Source: a virus. From it: a stretch of DNA of 20,317 nucleotides. The position numbers and the translations under genes were made by a program. This document shows positions 552 to 20,317 of the stretch, one piece after another. Under the pieces are notes generated by a model. It ran no database searches. It was given only the letters and a program-made list of their open reading frames with translations, and was not told the DNA's origin. Every line of letters starts with the position of its first letter. The stretch's first letter is position 1. The stretch is from positions 1 to 20,317 of the IMG/VR virus record IMGVR_UViG_3300025909_000019; one strand, given 5' to 3'.

Positions 552-1337
552 CTACACGCGGGTGAGGTCCTGCTGGAGCGTCGCGAGGTCGAACCCCTCG
601 ACGGTCCGGCCGCGGGTCTGGTCCTCGATGGTGAGTGGGGCGTACCCCTCGTCCATGTACTTCGTGAGGAACCGGGCGGTGACGGGCTGCCTGCGGCCCC
701 AGGTGATGCAGTCGTAGAGGCCGGTCGTCGGGTCGTAGTAGACGATCGGGACGTAGTGGCCACCCTCGGTCTTGGAGCGCGAGACGACTTCCCACGGCTT
801 CCCGGCGTTGAACTGGTCCATGGCGCTGGTGGGGAACTCGATGCCGATGGCGGCGACGCCGAACAGGTAGAGGCTCTGCTGGATCTGGGTGAGGTCGCCG
901 GGGTGCAGCGCCGTGTAGGCGGTGATCTTGTGCCGTCGCCCGGTGGCGTCGCGGAGGCCCTTGCTGCGGCGGTATCCCATGGCGGTGCGGACGTCGGTGC
1001 CGTTGTCGGTGGAGGGGTCGCCGATGCGGTAGCCGGTGCAGGCGCTGTAGTCGCCGATCGCGCACGCGCCGGTGAAGGTGACCTTCCGGCCGCGTTCGAG
1101 GTTCCACAGGATGGTCTCGTGGTCGCCGCCGGCCCAGACGCAGTCCCCGGCGCCTTGGAAGCCGGGGGTGACGGTGTCGTCGGGGCCGTTGCCGAGCATC
1201 CCCCACGCGTCGGTCGCGACGGTCCGGTCGTGGCCGAGCGGTCCGGGTGGGAGCGTCGGGAGCGCGGCCGTGTAGCTGGCGAGCTTGAGGTCGCGTGGGT
1301 CGTCGACGTGCGGCGTCTTCCCGAGGTGCAGGGTCAC
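552..1337 (-). CDS. Papain-like cysteine peptidase homologue
   Basis: A 261-residue protein with a papain-type layout. A Cys sits in GDCVWAGG (C66) near the start of the fold, a His in GGHYVPIVYY (H194), and a Trp-Gly in ITWG (residues 212-214). This resembles the Cys/His/(Asn or Asp)-Trp order of C1/C39-like peptidases found in actinobacterial and phage genomes. The block around residues 118-170 (GYRRSKGLRD, RHKITAY, LFGVAAIGIEFP) supports that family. No signal peptide is visible. The GTG start at 1337 overlaps the upstream stop as GTGA; another GTG at 1340 adds one residue. It is the last gene of the operon, after the three-helix membrane protein. Its role is inferred only: accessory lysis, virion entry, or a non-enzymatic relic of the fold. 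Confidence 0.65.
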   Translation of the reverse strand: MTLHLGKTPHVDDPRDLKLASYTAALPTLPPGPLGHDRTVATDAWGMLGNGPDDTVTPGFQGAGDCVWAGGDHETILWNLERGRKVTFTGACAIGDYSACTGYRIGDPSTDNGTDVRTAMGYRRSKGLRDATGRRHKITAYTALHPGDLTQIQQSLYLFGVAAIGIEFPTSAMDQFNAGKPWEVVSRSKTEGGHYVPIVYYDPTTGLYDCITWGRRQPVTARFLTKYMDEGYAPLTIEDQTRGRTVEGFDLATLQQDLTRV

Positions 1338-1639
1338 CACGGCTTGAACAGGTCGGTGTGGGCGCCGAGGAGGGACCAGGCGACCAGGGCGAGCAGGATC
1401 GCGGCGGCCATCGCGAGGACCCCGTGGAGCTCCGCATAACCGGCGTCGCTGCCGGTCTTCGCGGTGGGGGTGACCTGCGCGCGGGTGACGGGGATCCCGA
1501 CGAGCGTCGCGATGGTGACGACGGTCGCGAGGATCTGCTCGTCGACGCCGCACAGCGCGAGGACGACGAGGAGGGCGGAGATGAGGCCGCCGTAGAAGGC
1601 GACGGGCTCATGGCGCAGCTTGGTGAGCAGGGCAGTCAT
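1334..1639 (-). CDS. Three-helix membrane protein, candidate holin
   Basis: A 101-residue membrane protein with hydrophobic segments at about residues 15-32 (FYGGLISALLVVLALCGV), 36-52 (ILATVVTIATLVGIPVT) and 74-93 (VLAMAAAILLALVAWSLLG). A short polar linker separates helices two and three. It follows the endolysin immediately, the usual holin place in actinophage lysis cassettes. Holins release or activate endolysin by opening the cytoplasmic membrane; that role here is inferred from size, topology and position. The start is uncertain: ATG at 1639 is chosen, but an in-frame GTG at 1648 overlaps the endolysin stop (GTGA) and would add MIR. A second membrane protein at 3554-3808 competes for the holin role. 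Confidence 0.7.
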   Translation of the reverse strand: MTALLTKLRHEPVAFYGGLISALLVVLALCGVDEQILATVVTIATLVGIPVTRAQVTPTAKTGSDAGYAELHGVLAMAAAILLALVAWSLLGAHTDLFKPW

Positions 1640-1644
1640 GCGGA

Positions 1645-2250
1645 TCACGCCTTCGGGAGCGAGTTGAGCGGGTGGGTCTTCGGGAGCTGCTTCACGTCGG
1701 CGGCGGTCAGGCCGCGGGCCTGGTACGCCTGGAGGCTGATGTGTTCGAGGTGGCTGCCGACGACCTCGTACACCTCGGGGGCGCCGTCGAAGCGGACGAT
1801 CATGCGGGTCTCCTTCGGAGCGGGTGTGGGTGCCGGGGCGGGTGCGCCGAAGACGTGCCAGGGGGCGTGGCTGTCGTAGAACGCGGGGTCGTCCGACACG
1901 GACAGGTGGATGTGGTCGTAGTGCTGGCTGAACCCGCTGTAGGGGCGCCATGCCCAGTCCTGGATGGCGCTGCAGATCCGGCCGCGGTAGATGACGTACT
2001 TGACGCGCTGGTCGCCGGCGTGGCCCATGACGCGGAGGGTTTCGGCGAGGGCGATGGTGAAGGGGGCGGTGGTGATGTCCCAGGCGGTGACGACGCCGGC
2101 GTGGGGCGGGAGGGGGTTGTGGTCGGACTGTTCGGCCTGGTGGCGGGCGTCGCCGATGGTCCCGTCTGACTGGCGCGGCCGGTCGGGGTAGCGCGCGTTG
2201 ACCTCGGCCTGGAGGGTCTTGATGGCTTCGGCGAGTCGCCAGGTGCTCAT
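1645..2250 (-). CDS. Endolysin, M15-like peptidase
   Basis: A 201-residue cell-wall hydrolase. The catalytic part (about residues 1-130) carries the signature seen in phage M15/VanY-like lysins: SDHNP with H44, then VVTAWDIT with D58, then QHYDHIHLSV with H113 and H115. These are the likely zinc ligands and catalytic residues for cutting peptidoglycan peptide cross-links. A Pro/Ala linker (APAPAPTPAP, about residues 136-146) joins a C-terminal module of about 50 residues (VYEVVGSHLEHISL, HPLNSLPKA), probably for wall binding. There is no signal peptide, so export should depend on a holin. The ATG overlaps the HNH stop as ATGA, with GGAG six bases upstream inside the HNH gene. The family call is firm; the exact bond cut is not known. 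Confidence 0.88.
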   Translation of the reverse strand: MSTWRLAEAIKTLQAEVNARYPDRPRQSDGTIGDARHQAEQSDHNPLPPHAGVVTAWDITTAPFTIALAETLRVMGHAGDQRVKYVIYRGRICSAIQDWAWRPYSGFSQHYDHIHLSVSDDPAFYDSHAPWHVFGAPAPAPTPAPKETRMIVRFDGAPEVYEVVGSHLEHISLQAYQARGLTAADVKQLPKTHPLNSLPKA

Positions 2251-2259
2251 GGGTGCTCC
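2247..2259 (-). repeat. Junction repeat, copy downstream of the HNH gene
   Basis: Minus-strand sequence GGAGCACCCATGA. It matches 12 of 13 bases of the copy at 2549-2561. It contains the Shine-Dalgarno, the end of the HNH frame (EHP-stop) and the endolysin ATG. The two copies bracket the HNH gene. Confidence 0.6.
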
Positions 2260-2552
2260 AGGCTTGTCGGGGTGGGGTGCGGCGGCCGTCCGGCCCAGGC
2301 GCGGGCGGCGAGCTGCTGCACGTACCGGCTGTAGCCCTTCCGGACGGCCGGGCCCGGGTCGCCGCCGGCGTGGACGTAGGCGTCGATGAGTCGGTGCGTC
2401 GCGGTGTGGCTGTTCGGGCAGAGCGGCACGAGGTTGCTCGTGATCGTCTGGCCGCCCCATGACTGCGGCAGGACGTGATGCAGGTTCACGACGTAGGCCG
2501 CCGGGGAGTGCTTCGTGACGCAGCGGCACACGGGCGGGACGGGGCTCGTCAC
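2247..2552 (-). CDS. HNH endonuclease
   Basis: A 101-residue protein with an HNH core: VNLHHVLPQSWGG (H25-H26), TSNLVPLCPN (N40, C45) and SHTATH (H49, H53). The early CRC at residues 9-11 together with C45 may form a structural zinc site. HNH nucleases nick or cut DNA using one metal ion. In phages they serve as homing nucleases or, when next to terminase, help packaging. This one lies in the lysis cassette far from the terminase, which favours a selfish or homing role (inference). The GTG start at 2552 has AGGAG five bases upstream and overlaps the preceding stop (GTGA). Its 3' end overlaps the endolysin start. Near-identical 13-base junctions flank it, suggesting insertion between two older coupled genes. 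Confidence 0.87.
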   Translation of the reverse strand: MTSPVPPVCRCVTKHSPAAYVVNLHHVLPQSWGGQTITSNLVPLCPNSHTATHRLIDAYVHAGGDPGPAVRKGYSRYVQQLAARAWAGRPPHPTPTSLEHP

Positions 2553-2561
2553 GGGTGCTCC
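2549..2561 (-). repeat. Junction repeat, copy upstream of the HNH gene
   Basis: Minus-strand sequence GGAGCACCCGTGA. It holds the Shine-Dalgarno and GTG start of the HNH gene and the EHP-stop end of the Cys-rich gene. It differs from the copy at 2247-2259 by one base, G for A in the start codon. Confidence 0.6.
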
Positions 2562-2725
2562 TTGCCGTTCGGGGTGTCGTGGATGTCCCACATGACGCGG
2601 GTGATGAGCCGAAGGCCGCAGAGCCCGGCGGTACAGCCGCACCAGCCGGAGACCCATCCGTCGCACCGCCAGTGCTGCTTGATGCGGCAGGCGGCGCAGG
2701 CGGATGGGGTGATGTCTTCGAGCAC
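2549..2725 (-). CDS. Small Cys-rich protein, probable zinc-binding
   Basis: A 58-residue protein read from GTG at 2725, two bases after the upstream stop, to a TGA at 2549 that overlaps the HNH start. It has cysteines at positions 10, 13, 21, 29, 31 and 36 plus H18, laid out as SACAACR, KQHWRC, GWCGC and GLCG. The CxxC and CxC pairs suggest a zinc-finger or zinc-ribbon fold. No Shine-Dalgarno is obvious, so translation is probably coupled to the preceding gene. The function is unknown. Its tight packing between two other genes and the fact that it fills an otherwise empty 174-base gap support it being real. It ends in EHP, as the HNH protein does, because of the duplicated junction. Confidence 0.65.
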   Translation of the reverse strand: MLEDITPSACAACRIKQHWRCDGWVSGWCGCTAGLCGLRLITRVMWDIHDTPNGKEHP

Positions 2726-2726
2726 C

Positions 2727-3101
2727 TCAGCGGTAGCTGGCGCACGACCCGATGACGCCGGCGCGGGCGGCGGCGGCCTTCCGCTGCTGCGCGAGGCGGA
2801 TCACCTGCTCCTGACGGGCCGCGAGGGATGCCAGCAGCGGGTCGGTCGGGCGGGGGGCCTGCTTCGCGATGTCGAGGAGCTGCTGGTAGAGGTCGGCGTC
2901 GGCCGCGACGCTGTCGTGGTTGCTCTGGTCGTAGCTCTGCCGTTGCAGGCAGCGGTGGTAGATCGTCGCCTTCAGGTCCTTCAGCTGCGCCCGATACGCC
3001 AGCGTGAGGCCGAGGCTCGAGGCGAGCAGGCAGAGCAGCCCGATGAGGGCGAGGACCTGCGTCACTGTGAGGGTCCGCTCGCCGCGCAGTAGGGCTCTCA
3101 T
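2727..3101 (-). CDS. Single-pass membrane protein of the lysis region
   Basis: A 124-residue protein with a short basic N-terminus (MRALLRGER), one membrane helix at about residues 14-36 (TQVLALIGLLCLLASSLGLTL) and a charged helical domain after it. The positive-inside rule puts the long C-terminal part outside the cytoplasmic membrane. Two cysteines there, C51 (YHRC) and C120 (GSCASYR), could form a disulfide in an oxidising compartment. The ATG at 3101 is preceded by GAGGA, overlapping the upstream stop. I do not recognise a named family. Its position among holin-like and lysin genes suggests a part in host lysis or envelope disruption, which is inference. Confidence 0.72.
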   Translation of the reverse strand: MRALLRGERTLTVTQVLALIGLLCLLASSLGLTLAYRAQLKDLKATIYHRCLQRQSYDQSNHDSVAADADLYQQLLDIAKQAPRPTDPLLASLAARQEQVIRLAQQRKAAAARAGVIGSCASYR

Positions 3102-4446: not shown

Positions 4447-6048
4447 TCAGGGCTCCGGGTAGAAGTCGACCTCGTACTGCACGAGACCCTCCTGCGGCTC
4501 GGAGACGCTGATGCTCATGCAACGCCCCTTGATCAGCGTGCCCGTCAGGTCAGGAACGCGAAGGACATCACCCAGACCGAAATCGAGGTACGGCTTCGGA
4601 CCCGGCGACGCCGAGGTGATCGTGAACGGGAGCGTGATCTGCGGCGTCGCCTGCTCACTGAAGAACTGGTCCGCGGTCTGCTGCGCCTGAGTCTTCGAGT
4701 CCGTCCCGCCCGTGCTGATCCCCGTAGCGCGCCGCCCATGCGCCGCGATCGACGGGGCATCCTCCACCAGCAGCCACCCGGTGCCGTGCCGCATCAAGCC
4801 GCTGTTGTAGACCGTCCCGTCCCTGACCGTCGGGGCATTCTGCACCACGTCCCGGCCAGGCAGCAGCGCCAGGGTGTCGCTGAGGTCCTGACCGCGACGG
4901 ACCCACGCGTTCAGCGTGTAATCGTGCGCCATCGCGACGTCCATCCCGGCGTCGGTCAGCTGCGGCAGGACGTCGAGCAGCGACGTCCCGACGTTGAGGG
5001 TCATCTCCTGCCTGTCGGTCCAGGCGACCCCATCCGTGTCGAGCGTGTCGGTGAAGCCGAGCGTCACACCGACGCCACCCATCTCCGACCGCGCGACGGA
5101 CTCCGTCACGAGCGTCTTCAGGATCTGCGCCGCATGCCATCCGGGCGTCGGCGGTGCGTAGCCGTGGACGGTCCAGTCGGTCGTGTCCGTCCGGGTGAGG
5201 AGCGTGACGGGGATCCCGTCAGCGTCGAGAGTCGTGGCGACGCAGATGAACCCGGCCGGGTTGAGCCCGACGGCGGCGGTGTTGTCGCACGACGCCGCGA
5301 GGGTGTGCGGCCCGGCCGAGAGGACCCCCGTCCAGAGGAGCAGCTTCTTCCACCCGTAGGGGTCGGTGTAGTCCGACGCGAGGATCTCTTCACCGTCGAG
5401 CTTCACGCTGAAGTAGTTGTCCCCGGAGGCCCAGATCCCGACGGTCGCGGCCGAGGCGAGGGTGAAGCCGCTGCGGAACCAGTTCCGGCCGGCAGCGGAC
5501 GTCAGGAGCGGGTCGGTGCTCCACAGCCAGTAGGCGTTCGTGTCGGGCCAGCCGTCGGGGTTGTCCGCCCGGTGGGTCGTGTCGAGGTCCCACCGGACAG
5601 CGTGCGGCGCGACCCAGTCCGCTGAGACGCGCCACGGACCGTCGGCGCTGGAGAAGTCGAACGCGCGGGTGTCGCCGGAGACGTCCCGCAGCCCGTACTC
5701 CGGGTAGACGACACCGCCGCGGAGCGGCCTGGCGCGCATCCCGGCGCCTTGCGCGGTGAGCCGACGTGCGTTCCGGCCGCCCGTGTCGGTGCGGGTCGCG
5801 GCCTTGTCCTCGATGATCCACCCGACGGGGTCCATCGCGGGCGCGTTCGTGACGCGCATCTTCACGACGTTCCCACCGTCGAGCAGGGTCGGGTGAGCAG
5901 CGAGGAGGGTGTCATCGAGGGCGAGCTCGAGCTGCCCGTTCCCGTCGCCGTTGAGCTCCTCCTGGAACTGCGGGTTGAACCGGCGTGGCAGGTGCGCGAT
6001 GAGCGTGGCCGCGTCCGGCTCGTAGACGCTCGCCCTGATGCTCGTCAC
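4447..6048 (-). CDS. Tail-tip protein, Gp37-like, with inserted jelly-roll-like domain
   Basis: A 533-residue minor tail protein following the distal tail protein, the place of the tail-associated hub protein in siphoviruses. The N-terminal part (about 1-120) and C-terminal part (about 290-533, e.g. GRDVVQNAPTVRDGTVYN, LGDVLRVPDLTG) match the general pattern of siphovirus ReqiPepy6 Gp37-like proteins, which form the hub at the tail tip. Between about residues 130 and 285 lies an extra domain rich in Trp and Asp (VGIWASGDNYFSVKLDGE, SAGPHTLAASCDN, NPAGFICVATTLD). It resembles galactose-binding or PA14-type jelly rolls and may bind surface glycans (inference). The GTG at 6048 lies seven bases after the Dit stop; longer readings overlap that gene and look non-coding. 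Confidence 0.75.
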   Translation of the reverse strand: MTSIRASVYEPDAATLIAHLPRRFNPQFQEELNGDGNGQLELALDDTLLAAHPTLLDGGNVVKMRVTNAPAMDPVGWIIEDKAATRTDTGGRNARRLTAQGAGMRARPLRGGVVYPEYGLRDVSGDTRAFDFSSADGPWRVSADWVAPHAVRWDLDTTHRADNPDGWPDTNAYWLWSTDPLLTSAAGRNWFRSGFTLASAATVGIWASGDNYFSVKLDGEEILASDYTDPYGWKKLLLWTGVLSAGPHTLAASCDNTAAVGLNPAGFICVATTLDADGIPVTLLTRTDTTDWTVHGYAPPTPGWHAAQILKTLVTESVARSEMGGVGVTLGFTDTLDTDGVAWTDRQEMTLNVGTSLLDVLPQLTDAGMDVAMAHDYTLNAWVRRGQDLSDTLALLPGRDVVQNAPTVRDGTVYNSGLMRHGTGWLLVEDAPSIAAHGRRATGISTGGTDSKTQAQQTADQFFSEQATPQITLPFTITSASPGPKPYLDFGLGDVLRVPDLTGTLIKGRCMSISVSEPQEGLVQYEVDFYPEP

Positions 6049-12846: not shown

Positions 12847-13059
12847 TCAGGCGGTGGGGTTCAGCAGAGCCAGCGCGTCGAGCGTCGCCTTCTTCAGCCC
12901 GGCGAGGGTGGTGGCTGCCGAGATGGCCGCCTGCGCGTCGGCCAGGGCCTGCGGATCGACGGTGACCTGGACGGGACCCACCGGAGGATCGGGGATCTCG
13001 ATTTCGCGGGTCTCGATGAGCACGCCGTCGGTGTATGTCTCGACCGTCACAGTTGCCAT
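12847..13059 (-). CDS. Small protein coupled to the fibre gene
   Basis: A 70-residue protein whose ATG overlaps the fibre stop as TGATG, so it is probably translated by re-initiation. It starts with beta-like sequence (MATVTVETYTDGVLIETREI), has a Pro-rich turn (PDPPVGPVQVTV) and ends in Ala-rich helices (ALADAQAAISAATTLAGLKK). A GTG at 13062 would add one residue. I recognise no named family. Overlap with the fibre gene suggests a partner, such as a fibre chaperone, base or trimerising piece (inference). The 31 bases downstream contain the ribosome site of the next gene. Confidence 0.68.
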   Translation of the reverse strand: MATVTVETYTDGVLIETREIEIPDPPVGPVQVTVDPQALADAQAAISAATTLAGLKKATLDALALLNPTA

Positions 13060-14258
13060 CACGCAGCTCGCAGCATCAGCGCAGGGATATTGCTACTCAC
13101 GTTGTTGACCGCCGGGGCAGAGGACGGGAAGGCTCCAGAGACTCCCGAGGAGCGGTACTGCGTGTTTGACAGGCCCGACACCGGGCCGTTGGGGAACCCG
13201 AAGTACGGCACATTGGTGTTGGCGGGGTAAGCCGTGATTGTCGGGTAGTTGGTCTGCATCACCACGGCCAACCAGTAGAGATCCGGGGTCAAGGTCACGC
13301 CGGTCAGGGTGGCCTCTTTGAGCCCTAGGGTCGCGCCGGAAGTTTGCCCAGCATCCACGACCAAGTTCGCGGGCACGCCGCCCGAGTTCGTGTAGATCCC
13401 GAGCCGAACCTGACCGCTCGCCGCTTGCATTGTGACGTAGGCCGCGATGCGGTCGAATGTCTTGCTAACCGTCAGCAGGAACGGACACCAATACACGTAG
13501 TTGACGTCGAAGGGGACCAACGTCGTCAGCGCGCCTGAGCTTGGGAACGGGTAGTTGTAGTTGCCAGAGCGCCAGTAGTCGACGCCGCCAGAGGAGGCCG
13601 GAGTCGCCCACTTCACCCCGCCTGCGCTCGCGGTGTCGGCGGTGAGGACCTGTCCGTCGCTGCCGACACCGAGACGTCCCACGGTGTTGTCGGCGGTGGC
13701 GACGAGCAGATCGCCCTTTGCGTCCACGAGGGACTTCGGGACCAGCAGGCCACTCGCCGTGTCCACGTAGGCCGTCGTGGCGAGCTTCGTGCTGTTGTCC
13801 GACGCCGCCGGCGTCGGCGCGGTCGGCGTGCCGGTGAACGCCGGCGAGGCGAGCGGTGCCTTCGTCCCGACAGTCGTCGCGAGCGCCGCCGCAGTCGACT
13901 CATCGCTCGCGAGCTGCGTCGCGATCTCCCCGAGCGTGTCGAGCGTGCCGGGGGCGCTGTTCACGAGCGCGGCGATCTCCGCCCGCGTGAACGCCGTCGT
14001 CGCGACCTGCGTCGTGTTCGTGCCCTGCGCCGCCGTCGGGGCCGTCGGCGTGCCCGTGAGGGCCGGGGAGGCCAGCGGAGCCTTCGCGGCCAGCGCGGCT
14101 GTGGTCGCGGCGGCGTCGGCCTTCTCCGTGTCGAGCTCCGCGAGCGCCGACTGGACGTCCGTCGAGGCGATGTTGCCGGTCGGCGCGACCGCCACCCCAG
14201 ACGCCTGAGAAGAACCGCTACCTCCACCCCCGGGGCCGCCGCCGACGCGGATGCTCAT
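13059..14258 (-). CDS. Fibre protein with tail-fibre repeats, encoded in the head module
   Basis: A 399-residue fibre. A Gly/Ser-rich lead (GGGPGGGGSGSS) is followed by two copies of the phage tail-fibre repeat at about residues 59-90 and 133-165: KAPLASPALTGTPTAPT and ATTAF in the first, KAPLASPAFTGTPTAPT and ATTAY in the second. A common fibre module follows at about 174-220 (VDAKGDLLVATADNTVGRLG, DGQVLTAD). The last 175 residues, aromatic and Tyr/Asn-rich (DYWRSGNYNYPFPSSG, VRLGIYTNSGGVP), look like a beta-sandwich tip. Such proteins trimerise and contact the host. It sits between the capsid and the connector rather than with the tail-tip genes, so it may be a head fibre. The ATG overlaps the preceding stop (TGATG). 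Confidence 0.85.
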   Translation of the reverse strand: MSIRVGGGPGGGGSGSSQASGVAVAPTGNIASTDVQSALAELDTEKADAAATTAALAAKAPLASPALTGTPTAPTAAQGTNTTQVATTAFTRAEIAALVNSAPGTLDTLGEIATQLASDESTAAALATTVGTKAPLASPAFTGTPTAPTPAASDNSTKLATTAYVDTASGLLVPKSLVDAKGDLLVATADNTVGRLGVGSDGQVLTADTASAGGVKWATPASSGGVDYWRSGNYNYPFPSSGALTTLVPFDVNYVYWCPFLLTVSKTFDRIAAYVTMQAASGQVRLGIYTNSGGVPANLVVDAGQTSGATLGLKEATLTGVTLTPDLYWLAVVMQTNYPTITAYPANTNVPYFGFPNGPVSGLSNTQYRSSGVSGAFPSSAPAVNNVSSNIPALMLRAA

Positions 14259-14533
14259 CAGACACCCGTCCGCAGCACATGGGCCGTACCGGAGCCGGAG
14301 GCTGTGACAGCCCACAGGTGCGATCCGGGGTCGAGGTCCAGCCCGAGAGGAGTGTGCGCCGGCAGCTTCGCTGTCGTGCTCGAGGAGGTGATCGAGCTGG
14401 AGAAGCCGAGGTACAGGTCCACGTCGCAGTCCAGGATCCCGACCGACTGGCCGCCCGCCATGTCCGTCTCGGACGCGGCGGAAAGCTCGATCGGGGTCGT
14501 GCTGACCCCGATCTGCGACGCGGACCCGCTCAC
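14258..14533 (-). CDS. Small beta-rich virion-type protein, unknown
   Basis: A 91-residue protein that is Ser/Thr/Gly-rich with alternating strands: SVGILDCDVDLYLGFSSSI, TAKLPAHTPLGLDLDPG and HLWAVTASGSGTAHVLRTGV. The layout recalls small beta-barrel phage proteins that coat the head or sit under fibres, but I have no firm family. GTG at 14533 overlaps the upstream stop (GTGA), and its own stop overlaps the fibre start, so it is locked between two virion-type genes. A capsid decoration role or a fibre-attachment role is inferred from position. Confidence 0.7.
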   Translation of the reverse strand: MSGSASQIGVSTTPIELSAASETDMAGGQSVGILDCDVDLYLGFSSSITSSSTTAKLPAHTPLGLDLDPGSHLWAVTASGSGTAHVLRTGV

Positions 14534-14955
14534 TTGCCTTCAGCCCCGCCCGTGCGCCGCGTCCCGCGCTTGCGGGGCGGCTCCACCACCTTCGTCTCAG
14601 CCGGCTCCGGCTCAGCGCCGAGCTGGCTCGACGGGCGCGCCTCATACCCGGCGTCGGAGTCACCCGACGGGTCGCTCGACAGGCCCAGGGCCTGCCTCTG
14701 CTGCGCGTACACGTCCGGGTCGCCCTGGCTCGACGGTCCGGGCGTCGTGAACTGCACGTCAGCCGGCGCGTCGATGTGCTCGACGACCCGCTCCGGGGCT
14801 GTCCCGATCGAACCCTCGTCGTACATCGGGTACGCCCCGGTGCTCTTGCTGAAGTCGATGTCGCTGTTGTCGACGAAGATCGGCTGCGGGTCCTTCGGCA
14901 TCGGGTAGGCGCCGGTCGACTTCGAGTAGTCGGTGTCGTCGGTGGTCACCGCCAT
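14530..14955 (-). CDS. Acidic disordered protein with repeated SKSTGAYPM motif
   Basis: A 141-residue protein with no recognised family. The N-terminal part holds two copies of one motif: DYSKSTGAYPM at residues 9-19 and DFSKSTGAYPM at 34-44. The two copies use different codons for the same residues, pointing to selection on the peptide. The rest is rich in Pro, Ser, Asp and Glu and probably disordered (GLSSDPSGDSDAGYEARPSS). It ends in a basic patch (PPRKRGTRRTGGAEGK). The ATG overlaps the preceding stop (TGATG) with GAGG upstream. Because it follows the capsid and precedes a fibre, the motif could dock onto a repeated virion surface (inference). Confidence 0.75.
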   Translation of the reverse strand: MAVTTDDTDYSKSTGAYPMPKDPQPIFVDNSDIDFSKSTGAYPMYDEGSIGTAPERVVEHIDAPADVQFTTPGPSSQGDPDVYAQQRQALGLSSDPSGDSDAGYEARPSSQLGAEPEPAETKVVEPPRKRGTRRTGGAEGK

Positions 14956-16671: not shown

Positions 16672-17682
16672 TCAGGGGGTGAGTGCGGTCAGGGCGAGGC
16701 CCCGGATGTTGACGAGCCGCTCCTGCAGCTCGTCCTCTTCGGTGGTGCTGACACCAGCGGCGCCGGAGCCGGCCACGTCTTGCGACTTCGTGGCGGGGTC
16801 GGGGGCGGCGAGTGACTTGCCCTCGCGGTCGGCGTCCGCGTCGGGCGCGACGACCTCGTGGATATCGACCTCGGTCGCGGTGCCGAGGAGTGTGGTGACC
16901 GACCCGTCGTCGGTGTAGTCCTGCGTGTACGTCGCGCTGTCGTAGTTGTCCTGCGTGACGCGGCTCGACTGGAAGATGACGGTCCCGCCGTCACCGGCGG
17001 CGTTCGGCAGGACCCCGCGCAGGTAGCCCCAGTAGCCGTAGTCGCTGCCGTAGGCGTCCTCGAGCGCGTCGGAGACGCGTTCCTGGAGCGCCTCGACGCT
17101 CCCGACGATCGCCTTCGTCCCGATGTGCTTGCCGAGGTGCTTCATGGTGCTGTCGCACGTCGCGCCGGCGCTGACGAGGCTGTCGTGGGCCGCCTGGAGG
17201 TACTCGAGGTCCTTCGCGCTGTTCCGCGCCCCGGTCTTCGACGCGAGGATCTTCGCGTCCTTGTTCGCCGGGACCGGCGTGAACGCGCCGTTGAGCAGCT
17301 CAGCCTTCGTGATCTGCCGCTTCCCGTCCTTGTTCTTGGTGGTCTGCTTGGTCAGGTACGCGACCGAGGCGGTGCGGATGTGGCCCTCATTGACGAGGGT
17401 CCGTACCTCCTGGCCGAGGACAGTGCTGGCGAAGGTGCCGCGGACCAGCAGGTTCCCTTCGGCGTCGTAGGACGGGACACCCGATCCGACGGTCGTCGCG
17501 ACGCTCATGCCGTGGTCGATGTCCATGCTGATGTGGTCGGGCAGCGGCTCGAACGCCCTGGTGACGACCGTCTCGTCATCGCGGTCCTCGGTGGGGGCGG
17601 ACAGGATCAGCTCGAACTCGCCGTTCGGGTCGGTGCTGTCGACGGCCTTCACCGTCGCGACGGCCTTCATCACCGGGTTCAC
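16672..17682 (-). CDS. Prohead maturation protease with long C-terminal extension
   Basis: A 336-residue protein whose first 150 residues match HK97-type (S78-like) prohead proteases. The catalytic His is in MDIDHGMS (H57) and the Ser in GHIRTASVAYL (S106), followed by the family ending LLNGAFTPVPANKDAKIL. It should cut capsid delta domains and itself in the prohead. The remaining half is unusual for the basic enzyme. It has a helical stretch (EYLQAAHDSLVSAGATCDST), a Tyr-rich part (AYGSDYGYWGYLRG) and an acidic tail, and may serve as scaffold. GTG 17682 has AGGAGG four bases upstream and overlaps the portal stop (GTGA). Confidence 0.88.
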   Translation of the reverse strand: MNPVMKAVATVKAVDSTDPNGEFELILSAPTEDRDDETVVTRAFEPLPDHISMDIDHGMSVATTVGSGVPSYDAEGNLLVRGTFASTVLGQEVRTLVNEGHIRTASVAYLTKQTTKNKDGKRQITKAELLNGAFTPVPANKDAKILASKTGARNSAKDLEYLQAAHDSLVSAGATCDSTMKHLGKHIGTKAIVGSVEALQERVSDALEDAYGSDYGYWGYLRGVLPNAAGDGGTVIFQSSRVTQDNYDSATYTQDYTDDGSVTTLLGTATEVDIHEVVAPDADADREGKSLAAPDPATKSQDVAGSGAAGVSTTEEDELQERLVNIRGLALTALTP

Positions 17683-19585: not shown

Positions 19586-19722
19586 AGCGTCTGGTGGATC
19601 AGCTGGATGCGGCGCTGCCGGTCGTGATCGTCCTGCTCGGCAAGGAGACGCTGTACCCGGGTCCGCAGTTCAGCCTCAGCGTGGCGCTTGCGGGGTGACC
19701 AGAACAGCCGGCGAAGCCTCAT
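19579..19722 (-). CDS. 47-residue basic helical protein
   Basis: A short gene from ATG 19722, overlapping the terminase stop as ATGA, to TGA 19579. The protein is Arg-rich and helical: MRLRRLFWSPRKRHAEAELR and then VQRLLAEQDDHDRQ. A longer reading in this frame would run into the terminase gene and looks non-coding (Arg/Pro-rich shadow). No family is recognised. The tight ATGA overlap on one side and the seven-base overlap on the other suggest it is translated. A basic amphipathic peptide beside the terminase could touch DNA or the membrane protein downstream, but there is no direct evidence. Confidence 0.55.
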   Translation of the reverse strand: MRLRRLFWSPRKRHAEAELRTRVQRLLAEQDDHDRQRRIQLIHQTLC

Positions 19723-20317
19723 CCGAGCACCACCATTCCTCGCTCCTCGTAGACGTTGGGGTTGCTGTCGAGCACGGCGAGTGCGCGGGTGACAGCGGCG
19801 AGAGGACCGACACCTTCGATGTCGCGGAGCTGCCACTGCTTCGCACCTGAGGTGCCGTAGTTGATCTGCTTCGCCACGCCGATCGCGGCGTTCAGCGCAT
19901 CGTGGTTACCGTGCCGCAGTGCACGTCCGCCCAGCAGGTCGGTGAAGGTTCCGCAAGCCGCGGCGAACTCGGCCGTCTTCACGACCGTCCCACCCGCCAG
20001 GTCAGCCGTGGTCCCGCCACACCCGACAGGGGCAGCGAACGACTCCCGCAGCCGCGCGACCCGATCCTCGAGCGTCAGCGGCGTCACACCCTCGGTCGGG
20101 ACGAGCTCGACCTGCACCAGCCCGTCGTCGCGTCGCCAGGCCGTGCCGATCCAGACCTGACGGTCCGCGTCGACATCCACCCCGAACACCGGCCAGCCAC
20201 GCTCCGCTCGCGGGTCCGCGAGCTCGAGCCACGCATCATGATCGAGACGGTTCTTGCCTGTGGCGGTCGCGTTCCACTGGCCCATGCCCTCACGCAGGAA
20301 CGCGTTCCTGCGTGAGG
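19719..20317 (-). CDS. terL: Terminase large subunit, C-terminal part (cut by window end)
   Basis: About 199 residues of the C-terminal nuclease half of a large terminase. The frame is open to the last base, so the ATPase half lies outside. The start of the visible part (AFLREGMGQW, then DHDAWLELADPRAERG) is typical of the join between ATPase and nuclease domains in actinophage terminases. The nuclease carries VFGVDVDADRQVWIGTAW with a probable catalytic Asp, followed by ALRHGNHDALNAAIGVAKQ and VGPLAAVTRALAVLD, the usual final helix. The enzyme pumps DNA into the prohead and cuts it. The first few residues fall in a perfect palindrome and may be artefactual. An internal ATG at 20285 is not the true start. 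Confidence 0.85.
   Translation of the reverse strand, partial: SRRNAFLREGMGQWNATATGKNRLDHDAWLELADPRAERGWPVFGVDVDADRQVWIGTAWRRDDGLVQVELVPTEGVTPLTLEDRVARLRESFAAPVGCGGTTADLAGGTVVKTAEFAAACGTFTDLLGGRALRHGNHDALNAAIGVAKQINYGTSGAKQWQLRDIEGVGPLAAVTRALAVLDSNPNVYEERGMVVLG
20288..20317. repeat. Perfect 30-bp palindrome at the sequence end
   Basis: The arm CCTCACGCAGGAACG (20288-20302) is followed at once by its reverse complement (20303-20317) with no loop. It lies inside the terminase frame and stops at the last base of the window. The half nearer the gene encodes the conserved-looking FLREG. The outer half would then be a fold-back copy, as produced by assembly or amplification artefacts at sequence ends. 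A real hairpin cannot be excluded. Confidence 0.9.

Follow-up and report, generated by a model that had tools for sequence, protein, structure and literature searches.

In the window analyzed here, which is a whole IMG/VR virus record of 20,317 bases (G000), the lysis cassette includes an HNH gene that we consider, with moderate confidence, to be a small free-standing mobile gene of the homing-endonuclease type, carrying within its own end the ribosome site of the gene that follows. The minus strand carries all of the genes treated below (Table 1). The GC content of the record is 0.69, and mycobacteriophages are the best among the matches listed for its portal against named phages (34.5% identity over 75%); together, these two features suggest an actinobacterial host. 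The region is also spanned by contig IMGVR_UViG_3300005327_000024, which is 100% identical to the window over 2.7 kb and 99.99% identical over 13,057 bases; this twin contig is therefore the same phage and no independent relative. Apart from the twin, the scans made gave no close relative of the window, and the phage collection contained no DNA relative of the region. With protein P0003, 19 matches were obtained from the phage collection, spanning 32 to 50% of its length, and a single one from the plasmid collection, spanning 73%; all of them are below 60% identity.

Table 1. Genes, gene ends, and junctions of the lysis cassette in the window
Feature	Coordinates	Strand	Remarks
Upstream neighbor, 124 aa, hydrophobic N-terminal stretch	2727..3101	(-)	stretch judged by eye
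Cys-rich small gene, 58 aa, GTG start, C-terminal HDTPNGKEHP-stop	2549..2725	(-)	
33-nt tail copy 1, end of the Cys-rich gene	2549..2581	(-)	25/33 bases as in copy 2
Upstream junction GGAGCACCCGTGA: Shine-Dalgarno, Cys-rich stop, HNH GTG start	2549..2561	(-)	
HNH gene, 101 aa, GTG start, C-terminal HPTPTSLEHP-stop	2247..2552	(-)	PF01844
33-nt tail copy 2, end of the HNH gene	2247..2279	(-)	
Downstream junction GGAGCACCCATGA: Shine-Dalgarno, HNH stop, endolysin ATG start; same in L008	2247..2259	(-)	
Endolysin-like gene, 201 aa, conserved D...H...H residues	1645..2250	(-)	
Small holin-like gene (by reading), several hydrophobic stretches	1334..1639	(-)	
Gene with relatives in other viral contigs	552..1337	(-)	phrog_19005, E 2e-34

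The HNH protein passes the cutoff of the Pfam family PF01844 (25.9 bits versus 21.4), as do its relatives in contigs L008 (27.4 bits) and L033 (28.9 bits). Residues H26, N40, and H49, which we take to be the catalytic His, Asn, and His of HNH enzymes, align with those of structure 6ghc and are invariant in three homologues, while one of the usual zinc cysteines is replaced in comparison with 6ghc, giving CPNS for CPNC. The AlphaFold model shows a strand, a strand, and a helix (pLDDT 73.6), the order of elements in the beta-beta-alpha metal fold of HNH enzymes, and a search for structural matches to it returned nothing significant, the best E value being 0.75. The gene is an ORF of its own between unrelated genes, and an Rfam search of the window gave no match and hence no sign of an intron. 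Judged from its sequence, the protein is a putative DNA-cutting enzyme that may act in homing. A genome scan with the HNH alignment also produced three matches of 16 residues, which were taken as chance.

Among the neighboring genes, the 124-residue upstream protein has no family in Pfam or PHROGs and one nonsignificant NCBIfam match, the Cys-rich protein has no match in Pfam or NCBIfam and reaches phrog_19123 only at a nonsignificant E value of 0.027, and the holin-like gene has no confident family match in Pfam or PHROGs. The endolysin-like protein matches phrog_32486, whose function is not known there (E = 5e-8), and has no Pfam match and no sequence relative in the PDB. In an alignment of six lysins of this family, the invariant residues include D58, H113, and H115, presumably those of an M15-type peptidase; Pfam does not recognize the family as such.

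Relatives of the gene at 552 to 1337 occur in 22 IMG/VR contigs, not counting the twin, and its match in one named record is annotated as a cysteine protease. None of these 22 contigs matched the endolysin or the Cys-rich protein, and one, L033, matched HNH; gene content was inspected in L033 and five others. L033 encodes a diverged HNH relative (5561-5881; 24% identity by alignment) directly before its relative of the 552-1337 gene.

When the viral collection was scanned with the HNH protein, a single contig came up besides the twin, IMGVR_UViG_3300045257_000069 (L008), which is thus the one independent relative at this similarity; the HNH proteins of L008 and L033 had no match in the phage collection at an E value of 1e-3. 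The L008 protein is 77% identical to that of the window over residues 9 to 101. Its gene is 82% identical over 260 bases, and the DNA match stops with the final base of the stop codon (position 5282), so that the 3′ boundary of the shared sequence is exact. The remainder of the L008 stretch compared (7.6 of the record's 18.6 kb) has only a 24-base match to the window. The two portal proteins are 23% identical over 260 residues (183 to 442), a weak match that crosses one TGA, and the HNH gene is therefore much closer than the two genomes appear to be.

The surroundings of the L008 gene are different on both sides. It is followed by an identical GGAGCACCCATGA, which leads into a GH25 lysin (PF01183 at 34.6 bits against a cutoff of 27; phrog_291, endolysin) with no significant similarity to the endolysin of the window. 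The gene before it is collagen-like (phrog_18350, tail fiber, E = 2e-13; Pfam collagen below the cutoff), which means that L008 does not have the Cys-rich gene in this position, and the junction between the two reads GGTGACACCATGA, differing from the upstream junction of the window. A scan of the viral collection with the Cys-rich protein found the twin contig only, and scans with the tail protein and with the lysin of L008 led to no contig beyond the twin and L008 itself. Since an identical GGAGCACCCATGA precedes unrelated lysins, the downstream junction most simply belongs to the HNH gene and would travel with it. According to the earlier note on this DNA, a coupling signal came in with the HNH gene itself, and L008 bears this out for the signal, the coupling itself being a prediction. 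On this distribution, with a well-conserved HNH gene in two genomes of weakly similar portals and with one relative to judge by, the gene looks horizontally mobile; a lysin swapped behind a resident HNH gene would look the same as a move of the HNH gene.

The comparison with L008 also bears on the last codons of the gene. The alignment covers 94 codons, including the stop; 73 of them agree in meaning, and 21 of these 73 are silently different. The tail peptide HPTPTSLEHP is the same in both phages, with silent differences in six of its first seven codons, and so the peptide itself seems constrained. The subsequent GAG CAC CCA TGA, which makes up most of the ribosome site and the spacer, is the same at every base; three unchanged junction codons are too few to speak for a separate RNA constraint and are not significant alone.

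The two junctions that flank the HNH gene share the pattern GGAGCACCC(G/A)TGA at 2561-2549 and 2259-2247 (minus strand), where 12 of 13 bases are alike. The earlier note gave these positions correctly, and it was also right that each junction holds a GGAG, an E-H-P-stop ending, and a start codon in a four-base overlap with the stop; an HNH gene does lie between them as described, with its boundaries now corrected to those in Table 1. The GGAG stands five bases ahead of the start at both junctions. In the 20,317-base record, the exact GGAGCACCCRTGA has two copies only, both of them here. RNA folding shows that neither junction is more stable than shuffled sequences (z values of 0.8 and 1.2), indicating that coupling is not needed for ribosome access and that restart after termination, rather than unfolding, is its likely form.

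In the explanation that we favor, the HNH gene would have become lodged between the Cys-rich gene and the endolysin-like gene, and its last codons (..CTG GAG CAC CCA TGA) would serve at the same time as the ribosome-binding site, the spacer, and the overlapping stop/start for the next gene. Through this dual use, a ribosome finishing the HNH gene could restart on the lysin, and ribosomes would enter the HNH gene likewise from the gene before it. The module boundary would be the ATGA itself, which would make the HNH gene and the lysin exchangeable as whole frames with lysin translation unbroken. The upstream junction would represent a recurrent type of ribosome site, and an old tail of about 33 nt common to the two genes may have reinforced it. 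A more far-reaching version, which we regard as doubtful, holds that selection acts on the C-terminal codons in two roles at once, as protein and as the translation start region of the lysis gene behind them; the HNH gene would then be a required supplier of the ribosome site, self-insured against loss, and would seed tail copies for the exchange of small genes in lysis cassettes.

The upstream junction may be either a product of convergence or a copied tail, as in genes 67 and 68 of mycobacteriophage Island3; both alternatives concern this junction and are compatible with the explanation favored above. To the first, in which two strong high-GC RTGA ribosome sites arrived at one 13-base sequence and the resemblance beyond it is due to chance, we give a little less than an even chance. 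Gene 3′ ends were compared in register, starting at the stop codon, with +1 for each match and −1 for each mismatch and with the best length taken up to 60; on this scale, the 13-mer scores 11. One control consisted of 1,505 ORF ends selected by a GC3 filter from both strands of 18 high-GC loci, including L008 and omitting the loci fetched with the 14-mer described below. Many of these ORF ends are surely not real genes, and the test was for this reason repeated with 47 annotated four-base overlaps from R4, phiC31, VWB, phiAsp2, and part of Island3, of which 23 have a Shine-Dalgarno sequence. A score of at least 11 was reached by 15 of 1,081 annotated pairs, or by 11 of 253 when both members bear a Shine-Dalgarno sequence, so that these 11 equal the 13-mer; among the ORF ends, 23 of 4,560 Shine-Dalgarno pairs and 3 of 351 GGAG pairs did so. 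The annotated control is thus the less favorable to the 13-mer (11/253 versus 23/4,560).

The window has seven RTGA stop/start overlaps, three of them with a Shine-Dalgarno sequence, the third being GGAGGACTCGTGA at 17682. For three such junctions, the annotated control predicts a match of the 13-mer grade in about one window in eight, and the 13-mer is consequently no strong evidence for a special origin. With up to two mismatches allowed, the pattern has three matches in the window versus 1.95 expected from shuffles. The junction sequence also recurs between other phage reading frames: at least 119 stretches in the viral collection contain the 14-mer TGGAGCACCCATGA, and 24 of these loci lie between two open frames of at least 50 codons (frames not proven to be genes). 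Seventeen of the 24 are distinct, and two of the 17 are the twin and L008. In a scan of 80 loci of the 14-mer among the matches listed, this HNH gene was found upstream only in the twin and L008. What speaks against convergence is the score of 17 over 33 nt and the rarity of the 13-mer among 30 records searched, where it was present in the twin and L008 only, many of the 30 being lower in GC. The earlier note had treated a 13-mer shared by many unrelated gene pairs of the same phages as evidence against its own proposal of a duplicated junction; on this point the findings divide, in that gene pairs of other phages do carry the sequence, whereas among the 30 records it is confined to these two.

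The likeness between the junctions extends farther than had been noticed, continuing in codon register for 20 bases upstream of the 13-mer (2549-2581 versus 2247-2279), with the peptide pattern HxTPxxxEHP. In all, the two gene ends agree at 25 of 33 bases and score 17. None of the annotated pairs is as similar (0 of 253 Shine-Dalgarno pairs and 0 of 1,081 pairs overall, with a maximum of 15); neither is any of the 4,560 Shine-Dalgarno pairs of ORF ends (maximum of 15), and 3 of 74,691 RTGA pairs are. Shuffling of all codons but the stop gives a P value of 8e-5 for this score. When the Cys-rich protein is compared with the HNH protein by BLASTP, the tail alone is reported (6 of 10 residues; E = 0.012 for a single comparison). 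As a positive control, Island3 genes 67 and 68 score 49 by the same method, while the other pairs of the 13 gene ends there score at most 13.

These values lend some credit to the second alternative, which we regard as possible but rather unlikely: that the Cys-rich gene and the HNH gene owe their 33-nt ends to one sequence through tail duplication or recombination at the boundary, one or the other of the two genes having entered there. Against it, the length of 33 bases and the register were picked post hoc, with the match already in view, and the P value rises to 0.009 (codon shuffling) or 0.002 (codon resampling) if the last four codons are held fixed. Annotated pairs also come near the observed score (3 of 253 Shine-Dalgarno pairs score at least 13), the upstream codons that match are rich in C, and the tail of the Cys-rich gene resembles the HNH tail of L008 no more closely than the 13-mer would make it (score of 11; 21 of 33 bases). 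If a duplication did occur, it would be more economical for the Cys-rich tail to have been copied from, or recombined with, an HNH-type tail.

A precedent for such an event is given in an excerpt of PMC3029335, in which recombination between shared gene ends explains the presence of a small gene in one phage and its absence in the other for Island3 67/68 versus Brujita. As in that excerpt, a small gene here follows another with a common 3′-end sequence, and gain or loss of the whole gene keeps both frames. The cases differ in that Island3, as the excerpt has it, shares a common 60-bp sequence and has a one-copy relative (PMC3029335), whereas here the likeness covers 33 nt at 76%, no such relative was found, and the gene is an HNH gene. 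Recombination of the Island3 type is possible for the two junctions of the window.

The earlier note had proposed a different route, namely, that the HNH gene entered by duplicating the Cys-rich/endolysin junction of its recipient. The two junctions are indeed alike, and loss of one unit would still leave a workable junction: as read off the sequence, deleting 302 bases would join the Cys-rich gene to the endolysin through GTG. This, however, would be true for almost any two RTGA junctions. In L008, moreover, the same downstream junction is attached to the HNH gene in front of another lysin and behind another upstream junction, which makes the proposed duplication improbable. The note expected unrelated junctions in HNH relatives to count against it; in the sole relative this applies to the upstream junction, but not to the downstream one, which is identical. 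The scans made found no HNH-free relative of the cassette. Still less probable is that the HNH protein serves as a packaging nuclease rather than a mobile gene, for which we take HK97 gp74 as the model: its size of about 100 residues with a lone HNH domain would fit, and phage R4 has an HNH gene (gp1) 1.2 kb before the terminase large subunit gene, but the gene here belongs to the lysis region, with about 17 kb between it and the ORF at 19719-20315 (a terminase end by eye), and is far more similar between the window and L008 than is the portal.

Small genes joined to the lysin by a ribosome-site-bearing overlap are also found elsewhere in the lysin family. A Shine-Dalgarno-bearing overlap with a small gene before the lysin is present in two of five family relatives, L004 and phiAsp2. 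In phiAsp2, the 53-residue pas65 precedes the lysin pas66, and the record annotates a putative translational coupling. In L004 (4600-5010), an HNH-like ORF is followed by a small Cys-containing ORF and then by GGAGGTCCGCTATGA and the lysin. This ORF has no Pfam match and was missed by the HNH pattern scan, which is accordingly insensitive, and we call it HNH-like by eye only. The Cys-containing and HNH-like ORFs of L004, the latter of another type, stand in the opposite order to those of the window. In L005 (with its like, L006), L037, and L038, no stop/start overlap precedes the lysin.

In lambda, the ninR genes are interlinked by ATGA, and together with lambdoid boundary sequences they exemplify gene exchange at conserved overlapping junctions. 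The exchange considered for the window is of the same kind, here with two junctions and in a high-GC phage record, and we regard its HNH gene as a modest further example of known phage gene shuffling. It is of interest in that the gene could be swapped in or out without silencing the next lysis gene; a mobile nuclease gene inside a tight lysis operon need not cut the following gene off from ribosomes. The HNH junction also offers a testable site at which whole-gene exchange at overlapping stop/start codons can be followed.

Two phage endonuclease genes are comparable. For mobE, a free-standing homing endonuclease gene of T4-like phages, an excerpt of PMC2988022 states that the AUG overlaps the nrdA stop and that the two are thought to be coupled. 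The HNH gene of the window resembles it as an HNH-type gene between phage genes, with a start that overlaps the upstream stop and with coupling suggested (mobE as described in that excerpt, PMC2988022); unlike mobE, it would in addition supply the ribosome site of the downstream gene. Pumpkin gene 40, in the excerpt of PMC3029335, is a case of HNH homing endonuclease acquisition; similarly, one phage has the HNH gene, and its kin lack it or have it elsewhere. Unlike that gene, the one described here is in a lysis cassette and has its 3′ boundary exactly at the stop/start, and HNH-free kin were not found in the scans made.

Two further repeats were observed. In L031, two RTGA ORF ends share 32 bases in register (score of 22); they are perhaps another case of a shared gene end, or perhaps not genes. 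In the window itself, a 59-base direct repeat (13806-13864 and 14028-14086), 85% identical between its copies, lies inside the long ORF at 13059-14663.
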